DNA of 64,000 nucleotides, taken from Thermopolyspora flexuosa. GTDB lineage: Bacteria > Actinomycetota > Actinomycetes > Streptosporangiales > Streptosporangiaceae. Below, piece by piece: positions 9,058-25,921 of the stretch. The notes below the pieces were generated by a model. It did not search any database. It was not told the DNA's origin and was given only the letters and a program-made list of their open reading frames with translations. The DNA is taken from NCBI RefSeq assembly GCF_006716785.1, contig NZ_VFPQ01000001.1, positions 4,836,001-4,900,000 on the forward strand, in the 5' to 3' direction. Position 1 is the first letter of the stretch. Every line of letters begins with the position of its first letter. The position numbers were made by a program, and so were the translations under genes.

Positions 9058-10251
9058 TCAGGAGCTCCACATTATTGTCTTGGTCAGTTGCGCTGCTAAC
9101 TCATTAATCTGTCCGAGGATGGCGTTAGGAGACGCGGTCAGATCAAGGGCGTGACAAATGATGCGTACCCCAGCGTGACGGATCACATGATGGGCGGGGA
9201 TTGCGTTGCCCTTCGCGTAGATGAGGTGCCCCTCGGGAAGGTTGAGGGCGGTGCAGTAGGCGAGCATCTGGTAGATGTCGCCGTCGACAAAGCCCTTCGA
9301 TCGTTGCGGCTTGTATTTGGCGTCGGCGACGGCGGCGGGGCGCCCCTGGAACTCCCAGACCAGGTCGGGTCGCATCGTTATGGTGTGCGACTCGTCGAGA
9401 TGGCAGGTGTACTGAGGGCGGACGGCGCCGCCGTGGCGCGCGTGCACCTCCTCGGCGAGGGCCACGGTGACAAAGGACTCGAAGATCTTGGCGAGGTCGA
9501 ACAGGAACGTGTTCGCCACGACCTCGCCCGGTGAGTGTTCGGGTGACGTGGCCCGCCAGACGATCTCCGCCAGGCGCAGCGCGGAATGGTAGCGGGCGTT
9601 GAGGCGCGTCGGATGCCAGGCAGGCGGCGCCGTACCGGGGATCGGGAGTGTGACGGGGGCGAGCCGATTGCGCAGGGCGAGGAGTCGGCGGCGGGCCTCG
9701 TTGTCGAGGCGGGGAACGGTGAGCAGGCGGTTGACCGCACCGAGCAGGATGCGGTTCTCCGGGATGTCCATGGTGAAGTCGTCGTGGCGCACCTCCATCG
9801 GGATCACCCGGCCATGGTGGCGGCGTAGCTGGTCGGCCTCGCGGAGCCGGCCGCGCATCACGTACGAGGCGTCCTCGACGACCTGGTAGCCCTGGAGCAG
9901 GCCGCCACGCAGCGCCCGCTCGGCCTGGCGGCACAGCGAATGGGCGACCGTGGGGAGCAGGCCCTCGCGTACGTCCAGGCGTGCGGTCTCCTCCCGCCAG
10001 CCCTTGGGGTCGGTCGCATAACCGATCAGGAACAGCAGGCGATCGATCGAGAGCTTGGGCGTTATCCACACCTCGACATCGCCTACCACGGCCACGCCGA
10101 CCTTGTCCCGGGCCTGCACCTCCCAGAGGTTCCTGTCGAACGGTGAAGGTCGTGCCCGTACCACGCCGGACGCGGCGAGCCTGCGCCCTTGTTCCTCGGT
10201 GAGCCGAAGCGACACCGCAGGCCCGGTCTCGGCGATCTGTATGCGTATCAT
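9058..10251 (-). CDS. mcrC: McrC-like nuclease subunit of a McrBC restriction system
   Basis: A 397-residue protein with the McrC layout: an N-terminal DNA-contact domain with WEVQARDKVGVAVVGDVEVWITPKL, a helical middle with an EVRHDDFTMDIPENRILLGAV block typical of the family, and a C-terminal PD-(D/E)XK nuclease in which RPDLVWEF and VADAKYK (residues ~295-320) supply the Asp and Asp-Ala-Lys residues. McrC binds the McrB hexamer, stimulates its GTPase and cuts DNA carrying modified bases. The start at 10251 gives the canonical N-terminus. It is the last gene of the five-gene minus-strand operon, 26 bases after mcrB. Confidence 0.92.
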   Translation of the reverse strand: MIRIQIAETGPAVSLRLTEEQGRRLAASGVVRARPSPFDRNLWEVQARDKVGVAVVGDVEVWITPKLSIDRLLFLIGYATDPKGWREETARLDVREGLLPTVAHSLCRQAERALRGGLLQGYQVVEDASYVMRGRLREADQLRRHHGRVIPMEVRHDDFTMDIPENRILLGAVNRLLTVPRLDNEARRRLLALRNRLAPVTLPIPGTAPPAWHPTRLNARYHSALRLAEIVWRATSPEHSPGEVVANTFLFDLAKIFESFVTVALAEEVHARHGGAVRPQYTCHLDESHTITMRPDLVWEFQGRPAAVADAKYKPQRSKGFVDGDIYQMLAYCTALNLPEGHLIYAKGNAIPAHHVIRHAGVRIICHALDLTASPNAILGQINELAAQLTKTIMWSS

Positions 10252-10277
10252 CAGCGGCCGATCGGGCTGTGCGCCTG

Positions 10278-12389
10278 TCACGCCGGGATGCCGGTGGCCG
10301 CGGCGAGTTCCTTGCGCAGTGTGGACAGGCGGTAGCGGTCGAGGACGCTGCCCGGCCGGCCGTAGTGGTACTCGGCGAGCAGCGGCTCGATCGCGGTCTC
10401 CCATACGGTCTGCAGACCGTCCGGACGCCGGTAGATCTCGGGCTTCATCAGGTACGACGGGCCGATCGCCAGATCGCGATCCTCGATGCGGGCGTTGAGC
10501 GCGTCGAGGATCTGCGGGGCGTCGAGATTGTGCACCGCCTCCGGGTCGGTCTCGCGCAGTTTCTCGAGCCAGCGCGGCAGGATGCCCTTAACCGGCTCGT
10601 TTTCAGGGTGCAGCTCGACGAACCGGAAGCGGCGGCGCATCGCGGCGTCGACCAGGGCGATCGACCGGTCGGTGGTGTTCATCGTGCCGATGATGAACAG
10701 GTTCTTCGGCAGGGTGAAGTCGTCTTCCGGCGAGTACAGCAGGCCGATCGAGTCGTCGCGGTACTCCAGCAGGAAGTAGAGCTCGCCGAAGACCTTGGCC
10801 AGGTTCGCCCGGTTGATCTCATCGATGATCAGGATGTACGGGGCGGACTTGTCCTCACGCGCGGCCTCGACCATCCTCCGGAACGGCCCGGGCCGCAGTC
10901 TGTAGGTCAGCTGACCGTCGGGTCCCTGTTCCGGACGGAAGCCTTCGAAAAAGTCCTCGTAGGTGTAGGACGGGTGGAATTGCACGAGCTTGACCGCAGC
11001 CGGCTCGGCCAGCCTATTCGCCAGCCTGCGCGCGAGGAACGTCTTTCCCGTGCCCGGCGGGCCGTACAGGATGATCTGCTTGTTCTCCCACAGCAGGTCC
11101 GCGATGCGCTGCAGGTGCTCGAGGTCGATGAACGTCTCCTCGGCGAGTTCTTGAACGAGCGCGGGGAAGGCCAGTTCCGACGGCTGAGCGTCGCCTCTTT
11201 CCTTCTCGTCGCGATCGATGCCCAGCGCGTTGAGGAGCGCCTCGATCGCGTCGATGTCCTCGGTGAGCTCCACGACGTCGGCCTGGTTGTGCAGCCTGGC
11301 TGGCAGCGGTCGTGGCAGCTTGGCAAACGGCACCGGGCGGGTTTCGTTCAGCCACTCCGCCGTACGCCGCAGGTTGGATCGCTGGTCTGAAGAGCACACA
11401 TAGCGGGCGTCGCCGGTGATGCGGCCCACATACGCCTTGCCGTTCGTGGTGGTGAGCACGTAGTCGCCCGGCCGCATGCGATTGCAGAAGGCGTCGAATT
11501 CCGCAAGCTTCGCCTCGCGCACCGCGTACGTCTTGTGCTGATATCCCTCGTCAACCGCCTGCTTGAGCTGCTCGCGGTCGATCGGCAGCGTGATCTCCCT
11601 GAGGTTGGCGGCGGCGAGAGAGACCGAGTTCTTACGCAGCCAAACCGGCACTAAGTCCCGTCCGTCCACCGACGAACCGCGCACCAGCCACGCCCGCCGG
11701 ACCGAGGGCATCTCCACCACATCGGCGAGCATCTCTCGAAAGTCCTCGGTGGTCAGCCGCTGGGCGGGATTCGCCCGGCCCTCCGGGTCGAACGTAATCC
11801 CCTCCTGCTTCAAGACTTCACGCGGATCGTCGGTGCGGCCGGGTTCTGGCCACTGGAAATCGCGCGGGACAGTCCCGTCATTTAAGAGCACCCGATGCAT
11901 TGACGGGAATTTGTTCTGCCGGAGGAATCCCCAAACCGAGTTCCACGATGACTCCGCCAGTTTGGCCAGGTCGCCGTGACCGGTCCAGGTGCCCGCCTCC
12001 AGGTGGGCCATCGCCTCGGCCACCAGCATCCACCGAGGATCTTTGTGCCTCTTACGTATCTCGTTCCGCCGCTTGGCCCGGTATTGGCGCCTGAGTTCCT
12101 GCGAGAGCTCGACACTGTCGTGCTCCTCGAGCGCCTGCAGACCTGCCTCGGTGATCGCCCAACCGTTCCTCCTGGTGACCCATCCCAACGCCGCGGCCTG
12201 CATCACCTTCCAACCAAGCCGGGTTTGCCAGCGCCGACGTTCGTCGCCGGTTATCGCCAGGTACTCGGGGGCCGTTTTCACCCGCTGCTCGACCCTATCC
12301 ATGGTCTGCTGGCGGGTCAACGGCCCATCCGCGTCGCGTAAGACCTCCAGTGTCGTGCGCAGCAGCAGACTGATGGGTTCGGAAGCCAT
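10278..12389 (-). CDS. mcrB: McrB-like AAA+ GTPase with composite N-terminal DNA-reading domains
   Basis: A 703-residue protein. C-terminal AAA+ core: Walker A GPPGTGKT (~residue 440), the McrB signature IIDEINRANLAKVFGEL and sensor IIGTMNTTDRS. N-terminal parts, by inference: residues 1-110 resemble the Mrr-N winged helix (RLGWKVMQAAALGWV, GWAITEAGLQAL); ~113-175 resembles the DNA-binding domain of O6-alkylguanine transferase or ATL proteins (GTWTGHGDLAKLA, PSMHRVLLNDGTVP, with no Pro-Cys-His acceptor, so non-enzymatic); ~300-375 is a PUA/EVE-like barrel (RPGDYVLTTTNGKAYVGRITG). These modules would read modified or damaged bases and pass DNA to McrC. The start lies 9 bases after the methylase gene ends. 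Confidence 0.9.
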   Translation of the reverse strand: MASEPISLLLRTTLEVLRDADGPLTRQQTMDRVEQRVKTAPEYLAITGDERRRWQTRLGWKVMQAAALGWVTRRNGWAITEAGLQALEEHDSVELSQELRRQYRAKRRNEIRKRHKDPRWMLVAEAMAHLEAGTWTGHGDLAKLAESSWNSVWGFLRQNKFPSMHRVLLNDGTVPRDFQWPEPGRTDDPREVLKQEGITFDPEGRANPAQRLTTEDFREMLADVVEMPSVRRAWLVRGSSVDGRDLVPVWLRKNSVSLAAANLREITLPIDREQLKQAVDEGYQHKTYAVREAKLAEFDAFCNRMRPGDYVLTTTNGKAYVGRITGDARYVCSSDQRSNLRRTAEWLNETRPVPFAKLPRPLPARLHNQADVVELTEDIDAIEALLNALGIDRDEKERGDAQPSELAFPALVQELAEETFIDLEHLQRIADLLWENKQIILYGPPGTGKTFLARRLANRLAEPAAVKLVQFHPSYTYEDFFEGFRPEQGPDGQLTYRLRPGPFRRMVEAAREDKSAPYILIIDEINRANLAKVFGELYFLLEYRDDSIGLLYSPEDDFTLPKNLFIIGTMNTTDRSIALVDAAMRRRFRFVELHPENEPVKGILPRWLEKLRETDPEAVHNLDAPQILDALNARIEDRDLAIGPSYLMKPEIYRRPDGLQTVWETAIEPLLAEYHYGRPGSVLDRYRLSTLRKELAAATGIPA

Positions 12390-12398
12390 GGGCAGCTC

Positions 12399-15300
12399 CT
12401 ACTCTGCAGCCGGACGAGCCGGATGGCGGGGACCATGACCAGGAGCGGGGTCGAGCACCGTTCGGTAGCGCGTCCCATTGGCGATCGCTTCGCTCATGGT
12501 GTCGTAGATCTTCAGGATCGCCTTCTTTGTGCTCGCGAACAATGCGGGAGTGACGTTCTTGAATGCGCGGAAGGTTTCCATGATGTAGTCAACGTCATCA
12601 CGGGACACCCCGTAGAGGTGAAAGTAGGCCGCGTCCAACTCCGCGCGCAGCCAGAAGCGCCGCTCCTCGTCCCAGCGGAATGGTGGACCGTTGTCACCAT
12701 GATCGCGAGCGAATGCTTCCAGCCCATAGGACGTATAGGTCAGCTCCAGCACTCGGCTCCGCACCCAACTTCCGATCTGCTCTTCCGGGTCCCACTCACA
12801 ACACCGGTCATACGCACTCGGGGGCAGCACAGGGAGTTGAGTTAGGTAATTGTAGGTAATGTGGGTTCCGGCCATTTTCTGACGGACCACGAAGTCGAGG
12901 ACAAATGAACACAAATTGGCGTAAAGACCGGAAACATCCTTGACTGAGGGAAGAATCAGAGGGCCAGTGTGACCTATACCAGCGAGTGGCATCACCCAAC
13001 TAATCAAGGTACGCATATCTGAGCTGCGACTAATGTCGCGCCAGCCAAGGAGCCAGCCTCGCTCCCACCTCACTGCGCGACGTCTGCCACGCTCTCCTTC
13101 TGGCGGGCACAGCCGCTCCAGGACATCATCTTCGGACACCCAGTATCGCGGGATCACCACATAGTCAGGATCGTCTTTCTGCTCGGGAGTAGGGCGAGGA
13201 AGGATGCCAACATTGGCCTGCGCCTGTGTCTGCCCCTCGTAAGTACCGAACCGGTCGTCGAAGTGGTGAAGCATTTTCGCCTCATAGAGAGGCAGAAGGC
13301 GCTTGCCGTCGCGGAAGAGAACGTTATCTTTAAGCTCCCAACCCTCCTCGAGCATGCTCGTCAGCGTCTCGCCGACGGACGCATCAGGATAGAACAGGCC
13401 CGAGTCGTTGGACATGTGAAACATGGCCAGGAAGGTAAGCCCCCAAGGGTTACTTTCCTCAACGCCAGCAGAGGCCTCTCGCCAGAGCACCGGAACCCGC
13501 CGGTGTATACCGACCGTGATTTCAGCGTTTCTTTTGTAATCGAAGACCGGGCAAGTCCCAGTGTTGGGATTTATGCGCTTGATATCTTCTGGTGTCAGCG
13601 AAAACTTGCGCTCAGGGATCTGGGTGACCTGCCGGAGCCGGAAGGCGAGATCGATTCGCTCCTGTGGAGCATTGCGGCCTGAGGCACTCCAGAGACAGAA
13701 CCGAACCCGATGATCCACGTCGGGAAATATTTTTTCTTCATTTTCGAAGTCATAGATCGAGACCAGGGTATTGGTCTCAACCATGTCCTTGAAGAAGAAC
13801 TGAGTGGTTGCGTCCGTGGCAATCCCTGTAGGGAGCACCATCCCTACTCGCCCATTGGAGGCAAGGATGGTCCTACCTGTCTCCGCGAAGACGGCGTACG
13901 TGTTGATGTCGCCCCGGCCGGTCAGCGGGTAGCGACCGGAATCTCGCAGCAGGAGCGTCGTACCGTCTGCATGGCGCAGGGCCGCCTTAAATTCGGCATA
14001 CAGCCGCCGATCCGCCTCTTCCTCGCTGTCCTTTAGCCCTTCGATAGCCAATTTCCGAGCAGCAGCATTCTTCGCATTCGCTATTTCCTCGTTACGAGTG
14101 GCAAAGTACTCTTTTTCTTGAATTTTCACCCGTTCCCACGGAGGATTTCCGATCACACAGGTAAATCCACCCGACCAGCCCGTCAACGGATTCACATCGC
14201 CTTGCTCGGAAACTCGGAACACATGCGGGAACTCCACATGCCAGTGGAAAAAACGATATTCGCGACTCAGCGCATCGACCCGCGCCACGATTTCCTGTCG
14301 CCGCTCATCGAATCCGTCACCGCCGATCCAGGACAACGTCTCATCCTTGATGGTATTCATTCGCGTCTTCAGGGTGAGTTCCTGAACGAACGCGGCACAC
14401 CAGGAATCGGCCACGCGTTTTGCCGACTTCCGTTGTGCATCGATCTCGCGCAGCCTACGGCGCTGTACCGTCAGGTCACTCATACGAGCCGGCAGCGTGG
14501 AAACGAGTTTTTGGGTGTGCGATGCGATGCGCACGTTCGACTCGTGAATCGGCTCGTCACCGAACAGGGTTTCCTGGCGAATTCCCTTAGCGGCTCGATC
14601 CCTCTCTGCTTCGTTCTCCTTCGCGACGGCCGCCGCGACCTCCTTGTCATCACCCTCGATTGGCTTGTACGCCGCCTTTGGAATTCCCCGTTTGATGAGC
14701 GCCGGAGTCGCACCGAGCAGGCTGTTGCCGACGCGAATGTTCGCATCAAGGAAGGCGAGTGGCCGACCGGGTTCCACTGACTCCAACCAAAGCTGCACCT
14801 TGGCCAGCTCCGCGGACATCTCGTTGATGTCCACGCCGTAGATGCAGCGCGAGACGACCTCACGCATGGCATGCCGTACCAGATCGGGGGACGGTTCGTC
14901 CTCCCCCGAGCGGATTTGCGCGATACGGCGCGCGATACGGCGTGCCGCCGCGACAAGGAAGTGCCCGGAGCCACAGGCAGGGTCGCAGACAGTGACGTTC
15001 AGCAGTGCCTCGACCTTCGCCTCGTCGGTGTCCGCGTCACGGAGCACGTCGTCAAGCACGGGGTCGAGCGTGGTGTCGAGCAACGCCTCGGTGAGGGACG
15101 GGGGCGTGTAGTAGGAGCCGGACTTCTTGCGCTCGTTCCCGGGCGCCTCGCCTAGGGAGAACGTACGTTCGGTTGTGTCGACGTCGGGGTGGTACTCGAG
15201 CAGGCCCTCGTAGACGCTGCCGAGCTCCTCGGTGTCCAACTCGCGGAAGTTGACCGTCCGCCGATGAAAACCCGTCTCGACGACGGTCAGGTGGCGTACC

Positions 15301-16637
15301 GCCTCGAGCAGGTAGTGGTTCGCGATCTGCATGCCCTCGAGCGGGGCGTCGAGCTCGTCCGGCAGGGACGGGTTCAGCGGGGTTCCGTCGGGTAGCTCGG
15401 TGATGCGCTCGAAAAGCCCTCCGATGCCTGGGATGGCGAGGTCCGGCAGTCCTTCCTCAGTACCGAGCGCCGTGAAGATCAGCTGGACGGCCTGCCACAG
15501 GTCGTCGTGGTGGTCGACACCGCCGCGAAGCGCCCGCTCTCGCAGTCGCTGTGCCGAGAAGTAGGCGGCGTACCGCTCGCGCGCCGTCAGCACGCGGCGG
15601 TCCAGCCGGTCGCCGACCTTGGCCGGCTCCAGCAGCACGTCACGATCCTCGGCGACGAACCAGAACAGCAACCGGTAGACCGTCCGCAGGATGGCCCGGT
15701 TGAAGTCCTCCTTACTCAGCTTGCAGAGCTTGTCGAGGCTGCCGCCGTACAGGGCGAGCTTCTCCGGTGTGTCGTACATAGGGAGCTTCGCCAGCTCCTC
15801 CGGTGTTGCGGTCCCGGCGAGGCGGCGGCGCAGCAGGTCGTTCGCCGGGTGGCGGAGGAATCCGGTACCGAGGGTCTCGATGGCCCGCCGTACGCCCAAG
15901 CGCATGCGGGACCGGGCGCGCTCCCCGATCCGTACCGCGTCGTTCCGCCACCGCTCCAGCAGGCAGTCAGCGACGGTCTTCCCTTCCGGCACGGCGAACC
16001 GGGTGGCGTGCACCAGCCGGTACAGCAGCAGGAAATCGGGGAACAGACGCTCGGAGAAGATCAGCTCGAGGTCGAACTCGACGTACGCCGAGCCTGCGAG
16101 CGCCCGCGAGTCTCGCAAGAGCCGCAGACGCGCACCGTTGGAGAGGATGCCCCACAGATGGTCATCGCTGCGGTTCAGCATCTCCTGCAGCATCGATTGC
16201 GGGGCCTTGTGCGCCGCCCCGGCGATGCCCTTAGTACGGCGGTCGAGCTCGACCCCCCAGCCGACCAGGTGGATCGGCACGTGCTCCCACCGGTGACTCA
16301 CCGGGTACTGGGTGCCCTCGATCGTGAACCCACCTCCGCTGGGCTGCAGCACCCCGAAGCCCAGCGAACGGAACAGAGGCAGCAGCCAGCGTTCCCGCGT
16401 GCGTGGCGCGCGTCCCTCCTGCCTGGCACGTTCCCTCTCCCGGGCGAACGCCTCCCAGGCGCCGCACAGGTACTCGAACTCCCGGGCGGCCGCCTCCCGG
16501 ACCGTCTCGTGGGGCAGCAGGCCGTACGCCTCCGGCTCACGGCCGGGCAGCTCTGGGCCCTCCAGCACACGAGTGAAGAGGTCAGCGGTGAACAGTCCGC
16601 CGGCCGTACGCAGGGAAGGGAAAGGGGAACGGCTCAT
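12399..16637 (-). CDS. large adenine-N6 DNA methyltransferase (DrmMI/PglX/Eco57I-like)
   Basis: A 1412-residue class I SAM-dependent methyltransferase. Motif I (DPACGSGHFLVAAARR) is near residue 553, followed by YGVDINEMSAELAKVQLWLES; motif IV NPPW, diagnostic of N6-adenine methylases, is near residue 830. About 500 residues before motif I and 500 after motif IV match the long flanks of PglX and DrmMI, which carry target recognition. The likely role is marking host DNA so that the helicase modules ignore it. ATG at 16637 overlaps the previous stop as TGATG with GGAGGG upstream; an in-frame GTG at 16640 is the alternative. Codon use and GC are more mixed than in the backbone, especially at 12.8-14.3 kb, probably the specificity part. 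Confidence 0.9.
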   Translation of the reverse strand: MSRSPFPSLRTAGGLFTADLFTRVLEGPELPGREPEAYGLLPHETVREAAAREFEYLCGAWEAFARERERARQEGRAPRTRERWLLPLFRSLGFGVLQPSGGGFTIEGTQYPVSHRWEHVPIHLVGWGVELDRRTKGIAGAAHKAPQSMLQEMLNRSDDHLWGILSNGARLRLLRDSRALAGSAYVEFDLELIFSERLFPDFLLLYRLVHATRFAVPEGKTVADCLLERWRNDAVRIGERARSRMRLGVRRAIETLGTGFLRHPANDLLRRRLAGTATPEELAKLPMYDTPEKLALYGGSLDKLCKLSKEDFNRAILRTVYRLLFWFVAEDRDVLLEPAKVGDRLDRRVLTARERYAAYFSAQRLRERALRGGVDHHDDLWQAVQLIFTALGTEEGLPDLAIPGIGGLFERITELPDGTPLNPSLPDELDAPLEGMQIANHYLLEAVRHLTVVETGFHRRTVNFRELDTEELGSVYEGLLEYHPDVDTTERTFSLGEAPGNERKKSGSYYTPPSLTEALLDTTLDPVLDDVLRDADTDEAKVEALLNVTVCDPACGSGHFLVAAARRIARRIAQIRSGEDEPSPDLVRHAMREVVSRCIYGVDINEMSAELAKVQLWLESVEPGRPLAFLDANIRVGNSLLGATPALIKRGIPKAAYKPIEGDDKEVAAAVAKENEAERDRAAKGIRQETLFGDEPIHESNVRIASHTQKLVSTLPARMSDLTVQRRRLREIDAQRKSAKRVADSWCAAFVQELTLKTRMNTIKDETLSWIGGDGFDERRQEIVARVDALSREYRFFHWHVEFPHVFRVSEQGDVNPLTGWSGGFTCVIGNPPWERVKIQEKEYFATRNEEIANAKNAAARKLAIEGLKDSEEEADRRLYAEFKAALRHADGTTLLLRDSGRYPLTGRGDINTYAVFAETGRTILASNGRVGMVLPTGIATDATTQFFFKDMVETNTLVSIYDFENEEKIFPDVDHRVRFCLWSASGRNAPQERIDLAFRLRQVTQIPERKFSLTPEDIKRINPNTGTCPVFDYKRNAEITVGIHRRVPVLWREASAGVEESNPWGLTFLAMFHMSNDSGLFYPDASVGETLTSMLEEGWELKDNVLFRDGKRLLPLYEAKMLHHFDDRFGTYEGQTQAQANVGILPRPTPEQKDDPDYVVIPRYWVSEDDVLERLCPPEGERGRRRAVRWERGWLLGWRDISRSSDMRTLISWVMPLAGIGHTGPLILPSVKDVSGLYANLCSFVLDFVVRQKMAGTHITYNYLTQLPVLPPSAYDRCCEWDPEEQIGSWVRSRVLELTYTSYGLEAFARDHGDNGPPFRWDEERRFWLRAELDAAYFHLYGVSRDDVDYIMETFRAFKNVTPALFASTKKAILKIYDTMSEAIANGTRYRTVLDPAPGHGPRHPARPAAE

Positions 16638-19471
16638 CACAGCCCTCCGGCCGAAGCAGGCAGGTAGACGTAGATGCCGAGAAGGTCGACGGGGGTGTGC
16701 GGGGTCACGGTGATCCGGGCGGCGCCGCTCTGCCGGGACGCCTCGCGGACCCGGGCGTGGGAGGCACGCAGGCGCTCGGCGACGGCCGCGGCCTGCGCGT
16801 TCAAGGCGGGCTCCAGGCGTGCGAGGAGTGCGGGACGGCCGTCGTCGCCCGGGACCAGCAGTCGCTCCAGGTCATCGCGGGCGAGTTCGGCGGGGATGTT
16901 CGCAGCGGGCTCCGCCGACAGCAGGGCCTCCACCTCCTCCGGGGGCAGCCACTGCGGGTCGTCCGGCCGCCCGCGGAAGGCGAGCACTTGCGCCTCCTCG
17001 GCCACCAGCTGCTTGACCCCGCCCCGTACCGGCAGCTCCAGATGCATACGGAAGCGGGCGAGCAGGAGCGTGGTGCGGCGCTGCACCGCGGCCGTGCGCA
17101 TCACCCCGCAGCGCCGGGCCGGGCGAGGACCCGGGGTCGTCGGATCGAGGGCGCTGTCGAGCACGTAGCGGGCGATCGCCGCCACGGCGGGGTCGGTGCG
17201 GTCGAGATGGGCGTGCCGACGGGGGGCCGGCATGTGCCGATGGAACGGCAGTGGCTGCGGGTGGCCCGGTGGCAGCGTGTCCCGCAGGCCCGCCGGGAGG
17301 GTCGCGGTGACGGCGGTGAAACCGTACTCCTCGTCGGTGAGTGAGGACCCGAGTGCCTCGAGGGAGTCGCGGACGAAACGCTCGATCTCATCGTTCGAAC
17401 CGAGGCTGGCGCGGATCTCCTCGATCTCCCGGGCGACCTCGTCCGGCTTGATGCCGGCCTGGGCGAACTTGGTGCGTGACGCCTTTTCCCGGTCCGCCGA
17501 GCTTTCCCACTCCCGGTGCAGGTCGCCGGTGGACAGGTTGAGGGGAAGTTGCTCCCATCGCTCGCCGCCGGAGGTGAGCAGCTCCTCCATCAGCGCCTCG
17601 ACGAGCAGGTTGGAGGAGTTGGGCACAGGCACGCTCACCCCGAGCCTCCTGCGGATCGCCTCGTGCTTGCGCAGCAGCACCCGCATAACGATCTCGTCGA
17701 TGACGTTGTCCGCGCCGATCATGGTCACTGCGCGGACGACGTCGCGCACCTGGCCGAACCGGTCGACGCGGCCTTCCCGCTGCTCGTGCCGGGTCGGGTT
17801 CCAGGCGAGGTCGTAGTGGACCACCGCCTGGAAGGTGTCCTGCAGGTTGACGCCCTCCGACAGGCAGTCCGTGGCGACCAGTACATGCCGCCCCTCGGTA
17901 CGGCTCAGCTCGTCGATGCGGGCCTCGCGCTCGCCGGGCGGCAGCGTACCGGTGACGCATTCGACCGTCGCGGCCTGGCCAAGCGAGGCTCGCAGATGCT
18001 CGGCGACGTACTCGGCGGTGTCGATGAACCGGCAGAACACGATCGGATCGAAGCCGTCGGCGAGCAGCCCTTGCACCACCTCGTCGAGTTTGGCGAGCTT
18101 GGCGTCCTTGTCACCGGCGAGGGCGTCGGCCTCGCGCGCGAAACGCAGCAGGCGGGCCCGCTCGGACCGGTCGTCCTCGGCCACGTCGTCCGCGCCGGGC
18201 AGCACGTCGACGGACTCGTTCGCCTCGTCGTCGGCGAGGTCGAGCACCGTCGCACGGCCGATACGGTCGGCCTCCTCGGGTGTCTCGCTCTCGGCGACCT
18301 TCGCCCGCTTGCGCAGCGTCGCGGCGGCAGCCCGCGGCGACGAGGCCAGGGCGCGCAGCAGCGCCAGCACCGACCAGTAGCGGACCCGCTGCCGCAGCCG
18401 GTCGCCTGACGCGTCGGCCACCGTCTCCTTCGCGTAGGCCAGCACCCGGCGTACCAGGCGGTGGTACTCGTCACCGAGGTGGTAGCGCTCCTCCCGGGTC
18501 TCCCGCCGTTCGGGGAAAGTCGTCTTGCCGAGGTAGGAGATGATGTCCCCGCGACGGCGCTGGACCATGTGGCGGGCGAGCCGCTCCCGTCCCGCCCTGG
18601 TCTCCAGGTCCACCGTGGCCAGCTCCGGGTCGAGCAGGCCGATCAGGTTGCGGAACCCCTCCTCCTTACCACTGTGCGGGGTCGCGGTGACGAGCAGCAG
18701 ATGCCTATCGGGTCGCTCGGCGATGCGACGGAGCAGCTCGTAGCGGAGGGTGGCCGCGCCGGATCCGCCGTCGGCGACGCAGGTGTGCGCCTCGTCGACG
18801 ATCACCAGCTCCGGACAGGACTGGAGGAACTCATCGCGGCGCCGAGGGGACTTGATGAAGTCGGTCGACACCACGGTGTACGGGTAGTGGTCGAAGATCG
18901 ACCGGTCGTCGCCGATCACGTTGCGTTCGAGCTGTTTCACCGTGCTCGGCAACACCAGCTCGGCGTCGATGTGGAACTTGCCGCGCAGCTCCTCCTGCCA
19001 CTGCTCGGCAAGCGCCGGGCCGCACAGCACGGTGAGCCGGTTCACGGCCCCCTGGGCCAGCAGCTCGGCCGCGATCAGGCCCGCCTCGATCGTCTTTCCG
19101 ATGCCGACGTCGTCGGCGATGAGCAGGCGCACCGTCTCCAGGCGCATCGCCATCAGCAGCGGGACGAGCTGGTACGGCCGCGGCTCGACGGCGAGGCCCG
19201 CGAGCGAGCGGAACGGGCCGGCCGTCGAGCGGAAGCCGATGCGCAAGGCGGTGCGGAGTAGGCGGGCGCTCACCGCATCGCCGGCGTCGTCGGCGCTCGG
19301 GGGCGGGAAGCTCGCCTGCCGGACTGGCTCCAGGTTGGTGAGGATCGCCGCCGTCTCGTCCTCGCGCCCACCGAGCGGCCGGACGATCAGGAAATCGTCG
19401 TCACCGCCGGGCAGGACCACCCAGTCCCGGCCACGGGCGTTGACCAGGGAACCCGGCGTGTAGACGGCCAA
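16637..19471 (-). CDS. SNF2-family helicase, DrmD-like
   Basis: A 944-residue superfamily 2 ATPase. Motif I is DDVGIGKT (120-127), motif II DEAH (226-229), motif III LVTATPHSG, and the C-terminal lobe has VATDCLSEGVNLQ and QREGRVDRFGQ (motifs V and VI). Size and motif variants fit DrmD, the SNF2 helicase of class 1 DISARM, and the gene is directly followed by an adenine methylase as in drmD-drmMI. The last ~250 residues are an accessory region without a clear family. The start is TTG at 19471 with AGGAGGGG 7 bases upstream, 3 bases after the previous stop. It likely tracks along DNA to couple recognition with restriction. Confidence 0.88.
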   Translation of the reverse strand: MAVYTPGSLVNARGRDWVVLPGGDDDFLIVRPLGGREDETAAILTNLEPVRQASFPPPSADDAGDAVSARLLRTALRIGFRSTAGPFRSLAGLAVEPRPYQLVPLLMAMRLETVRLLIADDVGIGKTIEAGLIAAELLAQGAVNRLTVLCGPALAEQWQEELRGKFHIDAELVLPSTVKQLERNVIGDDRSIFDHYPYTVVSTDFIKSPRRRDEFLQSCPELVIVDEAHTCVADGGSGAATLRYELLRRIAERPDRHLLLVTATPHSGKEEGFRNLIGLLDPELATVDLETRAGRERLARHMVQRRRGDIISYLGKTTFPERRETREERYHLGDEYHRLVRRVLAYAKETVADASGDRLRQRVRYWSVLALLRALASSPRAAAATLRKRAKVAESETPEEADRIGRATVLDLADDEANESVDVLPGADDVAEDDRSERARLLRFAREADALAGDKDAKLAKLDEVVQGLLADGFDPIVFCRFIDTAEYVAEHLRASLGQAATVECVTGTLPPGEREARIDELSRTEGRHVLVATDCLSEGVNLQDTFQAVVHYDLAWNPTRHEQREGRVDRFGQVRDVVRAVTMIGADNVIDEIVMRVLLRKHEAIRRRLGVSVPVPNSSNLLVEALMEELLTSGGERWEQLPLNLSTGDLHREWESSADREKASRTKFAQAGIKPDEVAREIEEIRASLGSNDEIERFVRDSLEALGSSLTDEEYGFTAVTATLPAGLRDTLPPGHPQPLPFHRHMPAPRRHAHLDRTDPAVAAIARYVLDSALDPTTPGPRPARRCGVMRTAAVQRRTTLLLARFRMHLELPVRGGVKQLVAEEAQVLAFRGRPDDPQWLPPEEVEALLSAEPAANIPAELARDDLERLLVPGDDGRPALLARLEPALNAQAAAVAERLRASHARVREASRQSGAARITVTPHTPVDLLGIYVYLPASAGGL

Positions 19472-19474
19472 TGC

Positions 19475-22400
19475 TCATCCCCTCCTGCCGACACCGAACA
19501 CACTCGGGTACTTCTTTACGATCTCCGCGTAGTCCCCACCGTACGGCACGCGGATGACACTCCAGCCACGATCGCGAAGCTCTTCCTCCGCTTCCTCGTC
19601 GCGGCCGGGAGTGGCGGCGTCATCCGGGCCGTCGACGAACACGGCGACACCGGGATACACCAGATCCGGTCGCGCCGAGCAGCCGTCCAGCCGTGGGGCG
19701 ACCCGCTCGGGGAGGCGGTGCTCGTGCTCCTCCAGCCAGACGACAAAGGCATGGCGGGGATCATCACCCTCGACGCGGAGCCGTACCTGCTCCCACAGGT
19801 CCCCCTGCCTGGTCGTCGCGGGCTTGATGACGGTGGCACCGGCGCAGGCGAGCAGCAGGTCGCGGGCGCGGCGGCGGTCGATGAGGTCGTGGAAGGGCTG
19901 GTTGCTGAAGGACAGCAGGCAGTCGTAGCAGGCCTTGGCGCAGCGCTCACCGTTGATCGTGCCGCCGGTGTCCGCACCCGTCTCCGGGTCGAAGTGGGCG
20001 ATCCGCAGGGCGCGGCGGGCCGCGGCGGCGAGGGCGTGCTCCTCCAGTACGAGACGGCGCAGCACCCCCGCGCCGCCCTCGGAGCTCTCGATGAATAGTG
20101 CCCGGCCGCGCCGGTCGTGATCCGGGAGAAGCTCGCTGGTGAGCTCGTTGTCCTCCAGCTGGAACTCCGCCTCGATGCCGCGTTCCAGCGCGTACATGAA
20201 GCTGATCGCCTCCTCGGTGCCGACCTTCCGGGGCAGGCGGGTGACGAGGATGTTGCGGCTGTCCTCCACGTACGGGAGTACCAGCTGCTTGTTCTGGACC
20301 AGGTCCGCGTCGTCGGCGCGGTCGAGCTCGGGGTTCAGTGCGTCCTTCTCCGACAGCCACCTGCCGTTACGCACGTTGATCCAGAAGCCATCGGTGCGGC
20401 GCCGACGGCGGCCCATGTTCGTCACACGGACCGTGGCCGAGTCGCCGTACCGCAGCTCAAGGGCCGTGCGGCCATTCTGGACGGCGGTCGCCACCAAGCG
20501 TCCCGGTCGTGCCCCGTGATCGTTGAAGCGGTAGGAGGTGACCAGCTCGTAGCCGGCGCGGCGCCGCTCCTCCTCGTCTGAGGAGATGCGGTCCCGGCGC
20601 ACGGTCTTCACCGTCTGGAGGCGCAGCAGCCGGTTCATCGTCCTGCCGAGCCGGCCGCCGCACTCCTCGCACACGTCCGTGCCTACCTGGGTCTCGTGCA
20701 GGTAGCCGCAGTGCTCGCAGTGGCGGGCGGAGCGGGTGTCGAGGCTGCCCGAGCCCTGTTCCGCAGGGGAGAGCTGGACCTGTTTCACCTGATAGCGGGA
20801 ACCCTCGTGGTAGATGAGTGCGTCGGGGCCGAACTCCCTGATTGCAATGAAGCGGGGGCGGTGGATGAACTCTCCCTCGGAGTCGCCCTTGCGGTCGGGG
20901 ATGTAGGCGCGCAGCGGAAGCCGGGGGAAAGAGTATCCGGGGAGGAATCCCTCGGCGGCGAGATAGCGGTAGGAGTAGAAGTCGCTCAGCACGTCCTCGG
21001 ATTCCTCGTTGCACAGCAGCCGAAGCTGGTTCTCTGCCTCCCGACGACGGGCCATGGCCGCGTCGCGGACCGGCTTGCTCGTGGAGTGGTCGCCGATGAT
21101 GCGGTGCTGCTCCTCCCGCTCCGCCTTCGCGGTCGCGTACATGTCGCGCCAGCGATCGAACGCCGCGTCGAACGCCTTCGGGGCGTCGGCCACCGCGCGG
21201 TCGATCCAGTCACGGTGCCACCAGGAGGTGTTCTCGAGCTCGGAAACCAGTCCCGCCAGCACGAAACGCGCCCGCTCGGCCGCGCGCTGCCGGGCGTCCT
21301 CCCGGTGGATCGCCTTCGCCACCTCCGGAAAGAGCGGGAACCCCTCAGCGTCCACGTTCACGATGCCCGCGATGGAGGCGTCCAGCGGTAGCTCGGTCTC
21401 GGCGAGCCAGATCGCGTGCACGTGCGAGCGGATCAGGTCTTCGTTGGTGAGGTCGAGGCGAGGAGCGGCCACCGAGCCGCCCACCATCTGATCGCGGTGG
21501 CGGAAGTAGTACTGGTCGTGCGCGTTGCCCGTGGCGCAGTAGGTGACCACCAGAGCGGGCTGACCGGAGCGGCCCGCCCGGCCCGCGCGCTGGGCGTAGT
21601 TCGCCGGGGTGGGCGGGACGTTGCGCATCACCACGGTGCCGAGGCTCTTGATGTCGATGCCGAGTTCCATGGTCGGCGAGCAGTACAGGACCTGCAGGTC
21701 GCCCTCGCGGAACCGCTGCTCGCGCTCCTCCCGCACCTGACTGCTGACCTGGGCGGTGTGCTCGCGCGCCAGCATGCCGGCGAGGTTGGCGGCCTTCTCG
21801 CGGTAGAGGTCCCGGAAGAAGGGGTTCACGCGCGGGCCCTTGTCGGAGGCGACCTGCTTGCGCAGCCGGTCCTCTGCGCCCTTGCCGTCCCCGAGCTTCC
21901 ACAGGATGGACGACGCCTTGATCTGATAGCCGTCCCGTTCCTCGGCGAGCACACCGCACTTCGCCAACACGGCGAGCATGTCGCGGATCATCGCGGTGGC
22001 GTCGTCGCGGGTGAGATCGAGGTGCCGGAACTCCTTCTGCTTGAGCAGGTACCTTCCGTACACGCCGTAGCCGGTCAGGTGCAGATCGCGGCTGCCCTTG
22101 CGGCCGGGGCGCGGATAGGCGATGGCCGTGGAGACGAGCTGCTCGTTGCGGTCCATCGCCCACGGTTCCTTGAGGTAGTGGCGGCTGTCCTCCTTGATCT
22201 GCTCAAAACCGGTCGGGGTGAGGCAGTCAACATCGATCGCGAGCACGCGGCGCAACTCGTCCAGGAGTGTGCGCAGCAGCTCCTCGCGATGCTCGGGCAC
22301 GTCGTCGCGGAGCGCGTGGTGCCGGTCGTCCCACAGGTCCTGGGCGGCGGCGATGTCCGGCAGATCGAGGTAGTCCACCTTAAGCAGGCCGGTCTGTTCG

Positions 22401-24577
22401 AGGTTGGGCATGGTGATGCGCCAGCCGCGCTCCAGGTCCACATAGAGGCGGTAGGCGATAACCTGGCGCAGCGCCTGCCAGGTATTGCGTTCGACGGTGA
22501 ACCGCGCTTCCGGGTTCTGCGCGAAGTCGGCCAGCCGGAGGTTGAGAGCGTCGGTCACGCGCTGGACGATCTCCTTGTGTGTGAGACCCTCCGGCGCGTC
22601 GAGAAGGGCCCGGTACAGCGCACCCCGCAGCTGCACCACCTGGACGAAGTCGTTGAAGTGGCCCGCCTGAAGGCTCGCGTCCTGCCGGTTGTCGGTGAAC
22701 GCCAGCAGCTTGCGTTCCTGTTGCGGGACCGCGGGATCCTCGCGCAGGGTCCGGACCACGGACGAGCTGATCACGCTCGTGGCCGAGCTGCGGCCCTCCA
22801 CCGCGAGCGAACCGAGTTTGGCGAAGTCGCTGCCGCGGATCTGCTCGTAGGAGGTACGGCAACGCAGGCAGAAGGTGAACGGCGAGGGGATATAGGCGGC
22901 CCTGGTGCCTTCCTCATCGGAGGAGACAACGCGGCCGTCCGGAGCCACGTGCACGATCTCCGGGAGATACTTCTTCTTGGCGGCGACGACGTCGAGTGAG
23001 CCGTCTGGCAGGGTCTCCAGCCACGGCTCCGGCAGACGCTGCTCATCGATGGCGATCCGGGTGTTGTCCGGCCAGGCGAAGTCGTCTGACACGTATAGAT
23101 ACCCGTCGGTCTCGTCGCCGCTCACGTCGCTCTCCCGGCGAGACGTGAACCGTGTGATGCCCCGATCGTCGCTTCGGCGGACAGTCAGGTACTCCTGGCC
23201 GCACTCCCGGCAGAACGACACCGGGACCAGGATGTGATCCTCCTTACCCGGCTCCGGGACGACGGTCTGATAGCGGCTGGTGATGTATCGGGTGTCCTCC
23301 GGCTCGATGCTCACATAGACGTCGTCGCCCTTGGAGAGGAACTGGTGCAGGCGGAAGGCGAACAGCGGCCGCTCCGTGCGGGGATGGATGAGCGACGCCC
23401 CGCGCTGCAGCGTCGCCTGGATCGCCTCGACGCAATCCTTCTCGGAACGCCCGGTCAGGTCGGAGAGTTCGCGCGCCGCCTCGCGAACCGTGAGCGGGCG
23501 AGGAGGACGGGTGAGCTCCTCGGTCACCCCGAAACGGGTCTCCACCCAGGAGGCGAGCGGGCTGGCAATGAAGCTCTCGTAATCCTCGGGGACGGTCAGG
23601 TCAGTGACGGCGGCGGGATCCCCCGTGGTGACACGTTCCAACGTCTCGCCGATCACATGCGCGCTGGACACCGAAACCCCGAACAGCCGGGTCGCGACCT
23701 CGGCCACCTTCCTCCGGCGGTCCGGCTCGCTGCCCTCGGTGGTCATCGTCGCCGACGTGCCGACACACTGGATGTCCTCCGCACCGCACGCGTCGCGCAC
23801 CCGGCGCACCAGCATCGCCACATCGGCGCCCTGCCTGCCCCGGTAGGTGTGCAGCTCGTCCAGCACCAGCCAGTGCAGGCCGCGTGCCGCGGTGATCAGG
23901 TGCTTCCGCTCCTCGGGCCGGGTGAGCACCAGATCGAGCATCACGTAGTTGGTGAGCAGGATGTCCGGCGGGTCGGCGAGGATACGGTCGCGCTCCTCGC
24001 CTCTCTCCTGACCGGTGTACCGGTGGAACGTCACCGGCTCCTGGCCTCGACCGTATCCCTGCCGAAGGAACTTCTCGAGCTCCAAGACCTGGCTGTTCGC
24101 CAGTGCGTTCATCGGATAGACAATGATCGCCTTAACACCGGGGCGGTAGGTGCCTTCATCCTTGCGGCGAAGCACCCAGTCCACGATCGGGACGATGTAA
24201 CTCAGGCTCTTCCCTGAGCCGGTACCGGTGGTGAGCACATAGCTCACCCCGGTCCTCGCGATCTCCACGGCTTCGCGCTGGTGCCGGTGCAGCTGGAGAT
24301 CCTTTTCCTCTCCTCCCTCGCCCTTGCCGAGACGGAAGATCTTCTCGCACTCCGGGTGCAGCAAGCCTTTCCGCACCAGGTCGGGTATCGACCCGCCGGG
24401 AGCGTAATTCGGGTTGAGCGCCAGGTAGGGATCGGGCCACTGCTCACCGGCACTCAGCCGGTTCTCCACGTGTTCCCTGATCCTGCGGTTCCGGATCTCC
24501 GTGAAACCCAGAGTGAATGCCGCGTAGTCGGCAATCAGCTGCTCGTGGACCTGAAAGACATCCATTTCTGTCCGCAT
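19475..24577 (-). CDS. DEAD/DEAH helicase with DUF1998 (DrmA/DrmB-like) and C-terminal VSR-like nuclease domain
   Basis: A 1700-residue protein, first in the operon. Helicase lobe 1 has TGTGSGKS (117-124), DELH (240-243) within a VLDELHTYRGRQGADVAML block, and GTSATM; lobe 2 has MELGIDIKSLGTVV and QRAGRAGR (~990). Zinc-finger pairs CRECG, CLRC and CEHCG..CEECG punctuate the middle. Residues ~1400-1590 carry a DUF1998/MZB module ending in CAKACYDCLLSF. The last ~100 residues hold RPDLVYPGVAVFVDG and an ELRDRGW helix, the fold signature of VSR/DUF559 PD-(D/E)XK nucleases. It thus looks like a fusion of DrmA-type helicase and DrmB-type DUF1998 with a nuclease. The ATG at 24577 is the first good start; 24565 is possible. 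Confidence 0.88.
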   Translation of the reverse strand: MRTEMDVFQVHEQLIADYAAFTLGFTEIRNRRIREHVENRLSAGEQWPDPYLALNPNYAPGGSIPDLVRKGLLHPECEKIFRLGKGEGGEEKDLQLHRHQREAVEIARTGVSYVLTTGTGSGKSLSYIVPIVDWVLRRKDEGTYRPGVKAIIVYPMNALANSQVLELEKFLRQGYGRGQEPVTFHRYTGQERGEERDRILADPPDILLTNYVMLDLVLTRPEERKHLITAARGLHWLVLDELHTYRGRQGADVAMLVRRVRDACGAEDIQCVGTSATMTTEGSEPDRRRKVAEVATRLFGVSVSSAHVIGETLERVTTGDPAAVTDLTVPEDYESFIASPLASWVETRFGVTEELTRPPRPLTVREAARELSDLTGRSEKDCVEAIQATLQRGASLIHPRTERPLFAFRLHQFLSKGDDVYVSIEPEDTRYITSRYQTVVPEPGKEDHILVPVSFCRECGQEYLTVRRSDDRGITRFTSRRESDVSGDETDGYLYVSDDFAWPDNTRIAIDEQRLPEPWLETLPDGSLDVVAAKKKYLPEIVHVAPDGRVVSSDEEGTRAAYIPSPFTFCLRCRTSYEQIRGSDFAKLGSLAVEGRSSATSVISSSVVRTLREDPAVPQQERKLLAFTDNRQDASLQAGHFNDFVQVVQLRGALYRALLDAPEGLTHKEIVQRVTDALNLRLADFAQNPEARFTVERNTWQALRQVIAYRLYVDLERGWRITMPNLEQTGLLKVDYLDLPDIAAAQDLWDDRHHALRDDVPEHREELLRTLLDELRRVLAIDVDCLTPTGFEQIKEDSRHYLKEPWAMDRNEQLVSTAIAYPRPGRKGSRDLHLTGYGVYGRYLLKQKEFRHLDLTRDDATAMIRDMLAVLAKCGVLAEERDGYQIKASSILWKLGDGKGAEDRLRKQVASDKGPRVNPFFRDLYREKAANLAGMLAREHTAQVSSQVREEREQRFREGDLQVLYCSPTMELGIDIKSLGTVVMRNVPPTPANYAQRAGRAGRSGQPALVVTYCATGNAHDQYYFRHRDQMVGGSVAAPRLDLTNEDLIRSHVHAIWLAETELPLDASIAGIVNVDAEGFPLFPEVAKAIHREDARQRAAERARFVLAGLVSELENTSWWHRDWIDRAVADAPKAFDAAFDRWRDMYATAKAEREEQHRIIGDHSTSKPVRDAAMARRREAENQLRLLCNEESEDVLSDFYSYRYLAAEGFLPGYSFPRLPLRAYIPDRKGDSEGEFIHRPRFIAIREFGPDALIYHEGSRYQVKQVQLSPAEQGSGSLDTRSARHCEHCGYLHETQVGTDVCEECGGRLGRTMNRLLRLQTVKTVRRDRISSDEEERRRAGYELVTSYRFNDHGARPGRLVATAVQNGRTALELRYGDSATVRVTNMGRRRRRTDGFWINVRNGRWLSEKDALNPELDRADDADLVQNKQLVLPYVEDSRNILVTRLPRKVGTEEAISFMYALERGIEAEFQLEDNELTSELLPDHDRRGRALFIESSEGGAGVLRRLVLEEHALAAAARRALRIAHFDPETGADTGGTINGERCAKACYDCLLSFSNQPFHDLIDRRRARDLLLACAGATVIKPATTRQGDLWEQVRLRVEGDDPRHAFVVWLEEHEHRLPERVAPRLDGCSARPDLVYPGVAVFVDGPDDAATPGRDEEAEEELRDRGWSVIRVPYGGDYAEIVKKYPSVFGVGRRG

Positions 24578-24607: not shown

Positions 24608-24697
24608 GTATCCCGTAGCCGCCTCGGTTAGGGATACGAACCTGCATCATTGCCCCGCTCCGATCCCGCACATGTCCGGTATGTACCGGTGTGCGGG
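24608..24697. promoter_or_regulatory. inverted repeats upstream of the defence operon
   Basis: Two dyads lie 30-120 bases upstream of the operon start: GTATCCC at 24608-24614 with GGGATAC at 24630-24636, and a nested dyad, CCCGCAC/GTGCGGG (24665-24671/24691-24697) enclosing CCGGTA/TACCGG (24676-24681/24684-24689). They could be operators of a repressor or a terminator for the DUF1349 gene upstream; there is no T-run on the minus strand after the second dyad. Confidence 0.45.
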
Positions 24698-24785
24698 CAT
24701 GGACGGTCCCTTACCTGGGCTGCGGTTAGTGCTGAGGTGCGGCGACCATACGCAGCCTCGTGGCGTCTACCTACTGCGCTTGACG

Positions 24786-25385
24786 TCACTCGCCGCTGCG
24801 GATGTCCGAGGGCAGCTTCGGCGAGTAGGTGATCTCGCCGAAGCGGACGGTGCAGCCGGAGCCGGTGGGTGACTGGGCGAGGAAGCCGACCTCGGGCTCG
24901 CCGTCGAGGGCGAAGTAGCGGATCAGGTGCCAGAAGTCCGAGCCGACGGCCGCGTGGAAGGCGTACGCGGGGCCGAGCCGCGAGATGCGGAGGCGGACGT
25001 CGCCGCCGTCCACGGGGATCGAGTTGCAGTCGTCGGAGACGCCGCGGGTCACGACGGAGACGATGGTGGGACGGCCCTGCGGGGAGAGCTCGAGGCAGAG
25101 CTTCGCCCACCGGTCCTCGTCCGCGTACAGCAGCAGCACGCCCGCGTCGTAGGTGGCGGTGAGGTCCGCGGTGATCCGGGCGCTGAGGGTGAAGTCGCCG
25201 TCGAGGCGGCCGAGGAGGGCGGGCGCGTTCGCGTAGCGGCCCGGGCCGCCGGGGTCGGTGAACAGGTCGGTGCGAGGGCCGGCGGACAGGACGAGCGCGT
25301 CGTCGCCCTCGATCCGCCAGGCGGCGGGCTCGTTCAGCCGCCGCAACGGGGCCGGGAAGGCGGGCAGGACTGCGGGCTCGATCAT
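24786..25385 (-). CDS. DUF1349 domain protein (concanavalin-like)
   Basis: A 199-residue protein with the DUF1349 pattern: TDLFTDPGG early, FTLSARI then a YDAGVLLLYADEDRWAKLCLE block, a VTRGVSDDCNS stretch, WHLIRYFAL and a VGFLAQSPTG strand close to the C-terminus. The family is a jelly-roll/concanavalin fold related to yeast Ree1; a sugar-binding role is suspected but not shown. There is no signal peptide, so it is cytoplasmic. ATG at 25385 gives the family-length protein, although the frame stays open upstream. It marks the return to backbone composition after the defence island. Confidence 0.85.
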   Translation of the reverse strand: MIEPAVLPAFPAPLRRLNEPAAWRIEGDDALVLSAGPRTDLFTDPGGPGRYANAPALLGRLDGDFTLSARITADLTATYDAGVLLLYADEDRWAKLCLELSPQGRPTIVSVVTRGVSDDCNSIPVDGGDVRLRISRLGPAYAFHAAVGSDFWHLIRYFALDGEPEVGFLAQSPTGSGCTVRFGEITYSPKLPSDIRSGE

Positions 25386-25921
25386 CCAGATCAGCGTAAC
25401 CACGCGGGGACGACCGCCAAGACGGTCGCCGGGAAACCTTTGATACACCCGGCAGCCGCGGAGGCACGACCCGGTCCCGGTCGCCGGTGGCAGCCCCGGC
25501 CCAACGGCTCCGACCAGCGGAAACGTGAGCGGCAACGGCGTGCGTCGGTCCAATGCCCGCGCCCCTCGCCGACTGCTCGTGCTGAAAGAAACGTGCAACG
25601 CCGGTCATCGAGACGGGCCACGACGACGGCGTTGTCCGCCGGATCGCCGGTCCCCGGGGCCGCGGATACGGCCACGGCTCGTGAGATCGTCGGCTGACAC
25701 CCCGGCCGGGCACAGGGATGGCGTGGACAGCATCCGGCGGCCGCGTCCGCAAGCCCGGCATGGCACCGGACATCTCATCACGGACACGGCCACCCGGATC
25801 GGCCCGGCCGCCGACGCGGCAGGCCGCATCGCCGCGCCGTACCCTCGCCTGCGGAGCACGTGCGGGACGGCCATGATTGCCTGCCGGAAGGTGCCGAGCA
25901 GCGCGATGGAGGAGGGGTGGC
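25386..25921. other. intergenic region, DUF1349 gene / LOG-like gene
   Basis: About 540 bases between divergent genes. Frames in it are short and mutually overlapping, with no conserved domain. I see no RNA gene; promoters for both flanking genes are expected here. Confidence 0.5.

Follow-up and report, generated by a model that had tools for sequence, protein, structure and literature searches.

A variant ARMADA type I operon of Thermopolyspora flexuosa with a decayed Vsr-type nuclease domain and McrBC as its possible cutting arm

A 64,000-nt stretch of the Thermopolyspora flexuosa genome (NZ_VFPQ01000001.1), here called the window, carries five closely spaced genes on its minus strand that encode a YprA-family helicase, an SNF2-type helicase, a PglX-like adenine methylase, McrB and McrC. 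Coordinates are positions within the window unless another locus is named, and feature positions are collected in Table 1. We confirmed all five open reading frames (ORFs) of the preliminary description of this locus, and its spacings of 3, −1 (a TGATG overlap), 9 and 26 bases are correct provided that translation of the methylase starts with the ATG of position 16637 and that of McrC with MIRIQ (10251); they do not fit the starts of the longest ORFs (16640 and 10404). Pfam matches in the operon comprise McrBC (PF10117, E 2.9e-50), AAA_5, the Eco57I methylase, Helicase_C, DEAD and MZB (DUF1998). The MZB match (PF09369) covers residues 1461–1554 of the YprA protein, where helicase and DUF1998 share one chain, and CxxC pairs occur in the same protein at residues 456, 570, 1287, 1303 and 1550. 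A pattern scan found no simple DEAH pattern in the YprA helicase.

The window shares with class 1 DISARM a DrmD-like helicase and a DrmMI-like methylase, but it lacks a separate DrmB, and its helicase is not DrmA-like, scoring 358.6 bits with the PADLOC model of DruE and 50.7 bits with that of DrmA. The preliminary description had seen a core resembling DISARM class 1, with drmA and drmB apparently fused and without drmC. Only the last of these points survives, as Pfam gave no phospholipase D (PLD) domain in the six proteins searched and no DrmC nuclease appeared among the PADLOC matches listed. A DISARM system with a drmA–drmB fusion was rejected on the hidden Markov model scores and on the single 1700-residue ORF holding both helicase and MZB/DUF1998, which is the usual architecture of YprA proteins outside DISARM (PMC12458937). 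The order of YprA helicase, BrxHII/RapA-like SNF2 helicase and PglX-like methylase is the one by which Bell et al. (2025, PMC12458937) defined ARMADA type I, a name that rests on clade and shared genes, and these systems likewise carry their Vsr-type domain at the C-terminus of the chain that holds helicase and DUF1998. The window has this gene order, its helicase belongs to the ARMADA/Druantia branch as judged by the two PADLOC scores, and the OB-CON-DUF1998 part of the chain is represented by the MZB match. It differs from ARMADA type I in that the Vsr catalytic motif is lost and McrBC forms genes four and five. The Vsr nuclease is called predicted active in both ARMADA types (PMC12458937); because the catalytic His is missing from the homologous domain of the window, the operon is filed here as a Vsr-inactivated variant of ARMADA type I and not as a canonical member. 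The type II order, ArmA-ArmB-ArmC followed by a GajB-like helicase with a RelE-like domain, is not that of the window, in which the YprA gene comes first, followed by the SNF2 helicase, methylase, McrB and McrC. The last two genes have the features of a type IV McrBC enzyme, namely a McrB GTPase with the NxxD signature and a McrC with a PD-(D/E)xK site. Druantia III also possesses a related YprA helicase, DruE, with a C-terminal nuclease (PMC13192584), but there the nuclease is of the PLD type, the partner is DruH and neither of its two components is a methylase.

The C-terminal domain of the window helicase gave no nuclease match in Pfam at E 0.05. At the same threshold, 37 of 55 members of this domain family matched DUF559, 32 MTES_1575 and five Vsr, the matches of the first member being below the curated cut-offs. 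The fold assignment of the decayed domain comes from an intact homologue encoded in the same genome (L058), whose model (predicted local distance difference test score, pLDDT, 88.7) matched Vsr (1cw0) with Z 8.7 and a root mean square deviation of 2.3 over 91 residues after VIA re-scoring; for the homing endonuclease I-Bth0305I, Z was 9.5. Neither this model nor that of the McrB N-terminal part gave a Foldseek match at E 0.001 or better, and both Vsr and EVE/YTH ranked high solely after VIA re-scoring of Foldseek's own list. A sequence lookup in the PDB with the Vsr domain was uninformative, with 1cw0 seen only at E 0.37. What we take to be the catalytic residues were assigned from what is known of Vsr together with conservation, and with their His missing the domain in the window is probably inactive. 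The genome of the window carries a second ARMADA copy in which the Vsr motif is intact and McrBC is absent. The YprA helicase of this copy (L029; G000:C1, ~1500319–1506600) has an N-terminal Hanks-type Ser/Thr kinase domain (PF00069, E 3.3e-45); its 2094-residue frame had been taken to hold an extra C-terminal nuclease, which was wrong, the extension being the kinase. Of 57 loci whose frame could be read, 18 showed a kinase motif, with 13 further loci unscored, and a word search of the main text of PMC12458937 did not find "kinase".

McrC does not show such decay: its catalytic residues are kept in all 34 aligned McrC proteins, 22 of which come from Vsr-dead loci. The N-terminal part of McrB, modelled with AlphaFold2 (pLDDT 88.1; predicted template modelling score 0.53), is predicted to consist of a winged helix-turn-helix (residues 1–94, Z ~8), an alkyltransferase-like DNA-binding domain (112–216, Z 10.4) and an EVE/YTH-like domain of the PUA fold (229–391), the last matching VcaM4I with Z 11.5 and YTH domains with Z 8–9.8. 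Pfam gave no EVE or YTH match in this McrB, and an Mrr_N match at its N-terminus was weak and below cut-off. Three tryptophans (W234, W250 and W346) are invariant in the 24 aligned McrBs. The region before the GTPase varies among lineages, because five of 24 McrB N-terminal parts match DUF4357 and two match RAMA.

We searched overlapping sets of genomes with the window helicase at E 1e-50 and found matches in 23 of 396 genomes at the level of the phylum, 34 of 394 at that of the class, 40 of 200 at that of the order and 59 of 297 at that of the family, as well as in 23 of 149 relatives. Flanking regions spanning up to 20 kb, together with two further loci and six plasmid records, gave 105 loci, 16 partial, contig-edge or short-contig YprA places being left out. 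The order YprA-SNF2-methylase on one strand was found in 98 loci; it is not shown in L174, L175, L177 and L181, and contig ends truncate L176, L178 and L180. In 29 loci, the window among them, the McrB frame starts no more than 250 bases from the end of the methylase, and in eight it starts at 0.25–7 kb. For 48 loci more than 3 kb could be viewed and no McrB was seen, and 20 were not judgeable. The recurrence of the five-gene arrangement is not chance. The same five genes, which the preliminary description had proposed to look for in other actinobacteria, were found on plasmid pNOCA01 of Nocardioides sp. JS614. This plasmid (L156), typed as conjugative, also carries annotated DISARM drmA and drmB upstream of the ARMADA-I and McrBC set.

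The Vsr motif (PD...VDGPxH) was scored by a rule set on the first loci in 100 of the 105 (window included), the other five lacking a readable tail. Among loci with an intact motif, McrBC was direct in nine, near in six, absent in 40 and unjudged in 14; among those that have lost it, the corresponding numbers were 20, two, six and three. With strict adjacency, leaving out the near ones, McrBC is thus present at 20 of 26 Vsr-dead and nine of 49 Vsr-intact loci. A wider criterion (same strand, behind the methylase, within 25 kb), chosen after the distant McrB genes had been seen, gave 28 of 29 against 17 of 55, with two dead and 14 intact loci not judgeable. Split by subset, McrBC was present at seven of seven dead loci in L003, L005 and L056–L095 and at 21 of 22 from L116 on; for intact loci the corresponding counts were five of 25 and 12 of 30. 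The six rows with lost motif and absent McrBC belong to a single Streptomyces-like clade, which also includes L093, where McrB follows at 1 kb. Five of these six rows have a same-strand McrB about 14–22 kb behind the methylase, and the sixth, Streptomyces sp. BHT-5-2, has McrB ~8 kb behind it, followed by McrC. In one Vsr-dead locus of this clade (L126), an OLD-like gene (AAA_15 and TOPRIM) lies 123 bases behind the methylase ORF end. In two Vsr-intact rows the distance to McrB is about 8 and 10 kb. A genome-level McrB search (E 1e-45 and E 1e-20) covered the genomes of 36 of the 38 Vsr-intact rows for which no McrBC had been scored nearby, the remaining two being plasmid records seen for 7 kb; as the query came from a Vsr-dead locus, very distant McrBs next to intact systems may have escaped it. 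McrB was found on another contig or far away in G402, G457, G481, G839, G883, G920, G982, G993 and G1000, and in G000, the window's own genome, where it is the McrB of the window. The genome-wide McrC search covered the window's own genome.

In a tree of the helicase core, built without the nuclease columns and without L095 and L180, the dead rows with direct McrBC fall into four separate groups, in addition to which there are the Streptomyces-like group, L128 and L161. A single-clade origin of the four groups was rejected by the approximately unbiased test with p 3.7e-8, a value that is optimistic because an earlier tree had guided the choice of the group. A 45-row tree including other phyla has eight Vsr state changes, which would be losses rather than gains because intact rows of several phyla share the same motif. 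A model in which the two traits evolve dependently outperformed the independent one with both codings of McrBC (direct, likelihood ratio 24.9, p 5e-5, a rough value because one rate sat at its bound; wide, likelihood ratio 22.3, p 1.7e-4). Tests of this kind are known to be liberal. McrBC is sporadic among the Vsr-intact relatives, with nine state changes in 49 rows, and no McrBC change was seen inside the Vsr-dead clades (crude retention test, P 0.026). The McrBs of the window clade form one clade with 98% support, all nine being linked to ARMADA, and McrBs beside Vsr-intact helicases mix with unlinked McrBs. Distances of McrB and YprA correlate with rho 0.88 in the window clade (n=9), 0.78 in all dead rows with direct McrBC (n=20) and 0.48 in intact rows with direct McrBC (n=9). 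At equal core divergence, the nuclease domain is more divergent in dead than in intact rows in all five bins, for example 0.48 vs 0.33 at core 0.2–0.3 and 0.70 vs 0.53 at core 0.4–0.5, where the pairs are not independent and one bin consists of three pairs.

The only judgeable dead locus outside the wide criterion, on a Hydrogenimonas plasmid, has a same-strand HNH endonuclease behind the methylase. Ten more plasmid records were chosen from 60 listed for diversity of organisms before their neighbours were seen; for six of them the listing already showed a helicase match ending before the nuclease domain. An HNH_2 gene was found behind the methylase, often after other genes, in all seven Vsr-dead plasmid loci of one clade of Pseudomonadota and Campylobacterota (Paracoccus, Mesorhizobium, Sphingomonas, Croceicoccus, Acidithiobacillus, Agrobacterium and Hydrogenimonas). 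Two of these loci have an SMC-like gene between methylase and HNH (L246:25862–27844 and L251:25444–27426, the latter annotated as SMC); that of Mesorhizobium matches PADLOC LmuB (2.5e-16), which we take to be a Lamassu component. Chlorohelix, which is Vsr-dead, has a McrB-like gene with an EVE domain and a DUF2357 gene. The Vsr motif is intact in Roseomonas, Thermus and Chroococcidiopsis. In Roseomonas the ~2 kb visible behind the methylase include an opposite-strand ATPase, the Thermus record has no methylase beside the helicase, and Chroococcidiopsis has a reversed gene order, followed after a few genes by one for a PD-(D/E)XK nuclease.

Table 1. Features of the operon in the window and HNH_2 genes of Vsr-dead loci in other phyla
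Feature	Position	Strand	Basis or remark
YprA-family (DUF1998/MZB) superfamily 2 helicase, 1700 residues, ARMADA type I-like, gene one	19475..24577	-	Pfam DEAD, Helicase_C, MZB; PADLOC DruE
Walker A TTGTGSGKS of YprA helicase	24206-24232	-	
Vsr-type nuclease domain, decayed, residues 1566-1700 of YprA helicase	19478..19882	-	alignment
Degenerate catalytic stretch, motif His missing	19598-19672	-	
SNF2/RapA-like helicase (BrxHII/DrmD/DpdE-like), 944 residues	16637..19471	-	Walker A and DEAH present
PglX/DrmMI-like adenine-N6 DNA methylase	12399..16640	-	motif I DPACGSG 14964-14984; NPPW 14136-14147
McrB, AAA+ GTPase	10278..12389	-	NxxD signature MNTTD 10668-10682
McrB residues 1-216, winged helix-turn-helix (1-94) and alkyltransferase-like DNA-binding domain (112-216)	11742..12389	-	fold matches
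McrB residues 229-391, EVE/YTH-like (PUA-fold), predicted modified-base reader	11217..11705	-	model
McrC, PD-(D/E)xK nuclease	9058..10251	-	intact motif RPD...DAKY 9313-9372; PF10117
HNH_2 (PF13391) proteins, 220-266 residues	L245:25747-26532; L246:27855-28625; L247:24977-25777; L248:28157-28936; L249:25839-26621; L251:27533-28195; L241:32902-33609		

On either side of the operon, a 1044-residue WD40-repeat protein is encoded on the opposite strand adjoining the operon end (5379–8513), and an upstream ORF (24628–25773) was considered as a sixth member and rejected, as it matched no PADLOC or Pfam family at E 0.001 and its shorter reading (24784–25383) had no family match at E 0.01.

We consider it somewhat probable (about 0.55) that the operon is an ARMADA type I system with a handed-off nuclease, in which McrBC replaced the Vsr domain of the helicase as the cutting arm, a role taken elsewhere by HNH. 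The two helicases and the methylase would form the part for sensing and for distinguishing self from non-self, and McrBC, the only recognised intact nuclease of the operon, would most likely make the cuts, powered by the GTPase of McrB and guided by its EVE/YTH-like reader, by the helicases or by both. The decayed domain would then be inactive, McrBC would act on behalf of ARMADA, and the two halves of the system might touch each other. The preliminary description had argued for one functional unit with McrBC cutting, which gains support from the loss of the helicase nuclease motif in the window and in other McrBC lineages and from the kept McrC site. A nuclease is plausibly needed in an ARMADA-type system by analogy, because a mutation in the PLD pocket of the nuclease fused in DruE abolishes Druantia III defence (PMC13192584).

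Several observations weigh against a replacement of the Vsr domain by McrBC. McrBC follows the methylase directly in nine Vsr-intact loci, so its presence does not compel decay; the McrBC of the Streptomyces-like clade is not adjacent but lies 1–22 kb off, and gains and losses of McrBC occurred mostly without a change in Vsr. Two Vsr-dead loci (L179/G420 and L180/G463), whose contigs end before the slot, belong to assemblies without a McrB match at E 1e-20. The independent-pairs test, underpowered with three usable pairs only, was not significant, and the neighbours of McrBs from the dead clades A, B and C include some that are not in the linked set (L211, L209, L187 and L198). The motif loss was read from sequence, and the metal site may have shifted. 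We know of no experiment showing that Vsr matters for ARMADA-I.

The main rival, which we regard as doubtful, is that the two halves are complementary layers: ARMADA-I, not needing Vsr and tolerating its loss, would block unmodified phage DNA, and McrBC would independently destroy DNA with modified bases. The predicted EVE/YTH-like reader would suit such a role, as would the presence of McrBC near 17 of the 55 Vsr-intact systems with McrBs that mix with unlinked ones. The BREX methylase, too, is of the PglX type. On pEFER, BREX shares an island with the type IV enzyme BrxU (PMC8565348), a precedent described as complementary layers, in which no decayed partner nuclease is mentioned in the accessible part of that paper. 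Two independent layers leave unexplained both the joint occurrence of Vsr decay and McrBC and the HNH_2 genes behind the methylase in other Vsr-dead systems. The sequence data favour the hand-off over the independent layers, but they cannot decide between the two.

It seems improbable that the methylase marks targets rather than self, with the YTH-like domain of McrB reading the N6-methyladenine placed on the invader. YTH domains solved with N6-methyladenine DNA are among the fold matches of McrB 229–391, the N-terminal domain of Thermococcus McrB is a YTH fold that targets such DNA (PMC7680126), and the three invariant tryptophans would be consistent with such a reader. The best fold match is, however, an EVE-domain enzyme and not YTH, the fold does not reveal base specificity, host DNA would be endangered unless the methylase is gated, and the cassette persists in 38 Vsr-intact loci near which no McrBC was seen. 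Equally hard to credit is hitch-hiking in a defence island, with McrBC nearby through shared island history and Vsr decaying by independent drift, since the sporadic McrBC of Vsr-intact relatives and the distant McrBC of the Streptomyces-like clade, which fit it, stand against the near-gapless genes of the window, the excess of direct McrBC at Vsr-dead loci and the correlated evolution with both codings.

The gene composition itself is not new, because ARMADA type I has been named and the introduction of PMC12458937 states that a DISARM-like cassette often accompanies canonical McrBC. Bell et al. (2024, PMC11090510) displayed YprA-DUF1998, SWI2/SNF2 and PglX beside McrBC of the NxxD group as a prevalent association in the McrB tree (Fig. 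2, green) and deferred its analysis to a later paper. On the point which the preliminary description had left open, whether the composition has a name, ARMADA type I and the McrBC neighbourhood are thus in print; no report of Vsr decay in McrBC-linked ARMADA was found in the open-access literature searched. The accessible part of PMC11090510 does not contain nuclease decay, co-inheritance or the HNH alternative, that of PMC12458937 does not report McrBC-linked Vsr decay, and in a word search the main text of a 2026 paper on BREX diversity did not mention McrB, DUF1998, Vsr, DISARM, ARMADA or Druantia.

A wider and rather unlikely generalisation is that ARMADA-I is modular with an exchangeable cutting arm. 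Once an operon had acquired an outside nuclease downstream of its methylase (McrBC in Chlorohelix and several lineages of actinobacteria, HNH_2 in the clade of Pseudomonadota and Campylobacterota), Vsr would become dispensable and decay to a relic serving as a docking or DNA-binding part, and in the McrBC form the reader may use the adenine marks of the operon's methylase as the signal to cut. According to the accessible literature, the anti-phage mechanism of ARMADA has not been worked out, and the role of McrBC as a neighbour or a working part has been left open. The repeated decay of Vsr in lineages with McrBC or HNH_2 offers a sequence-based argument that the system needs a nuclease and that this nuclease may be exchanged, and the genome of T. 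flexuosa carries one system of each kind, Vsr-dead with McrBC and Vsr-intact without it.

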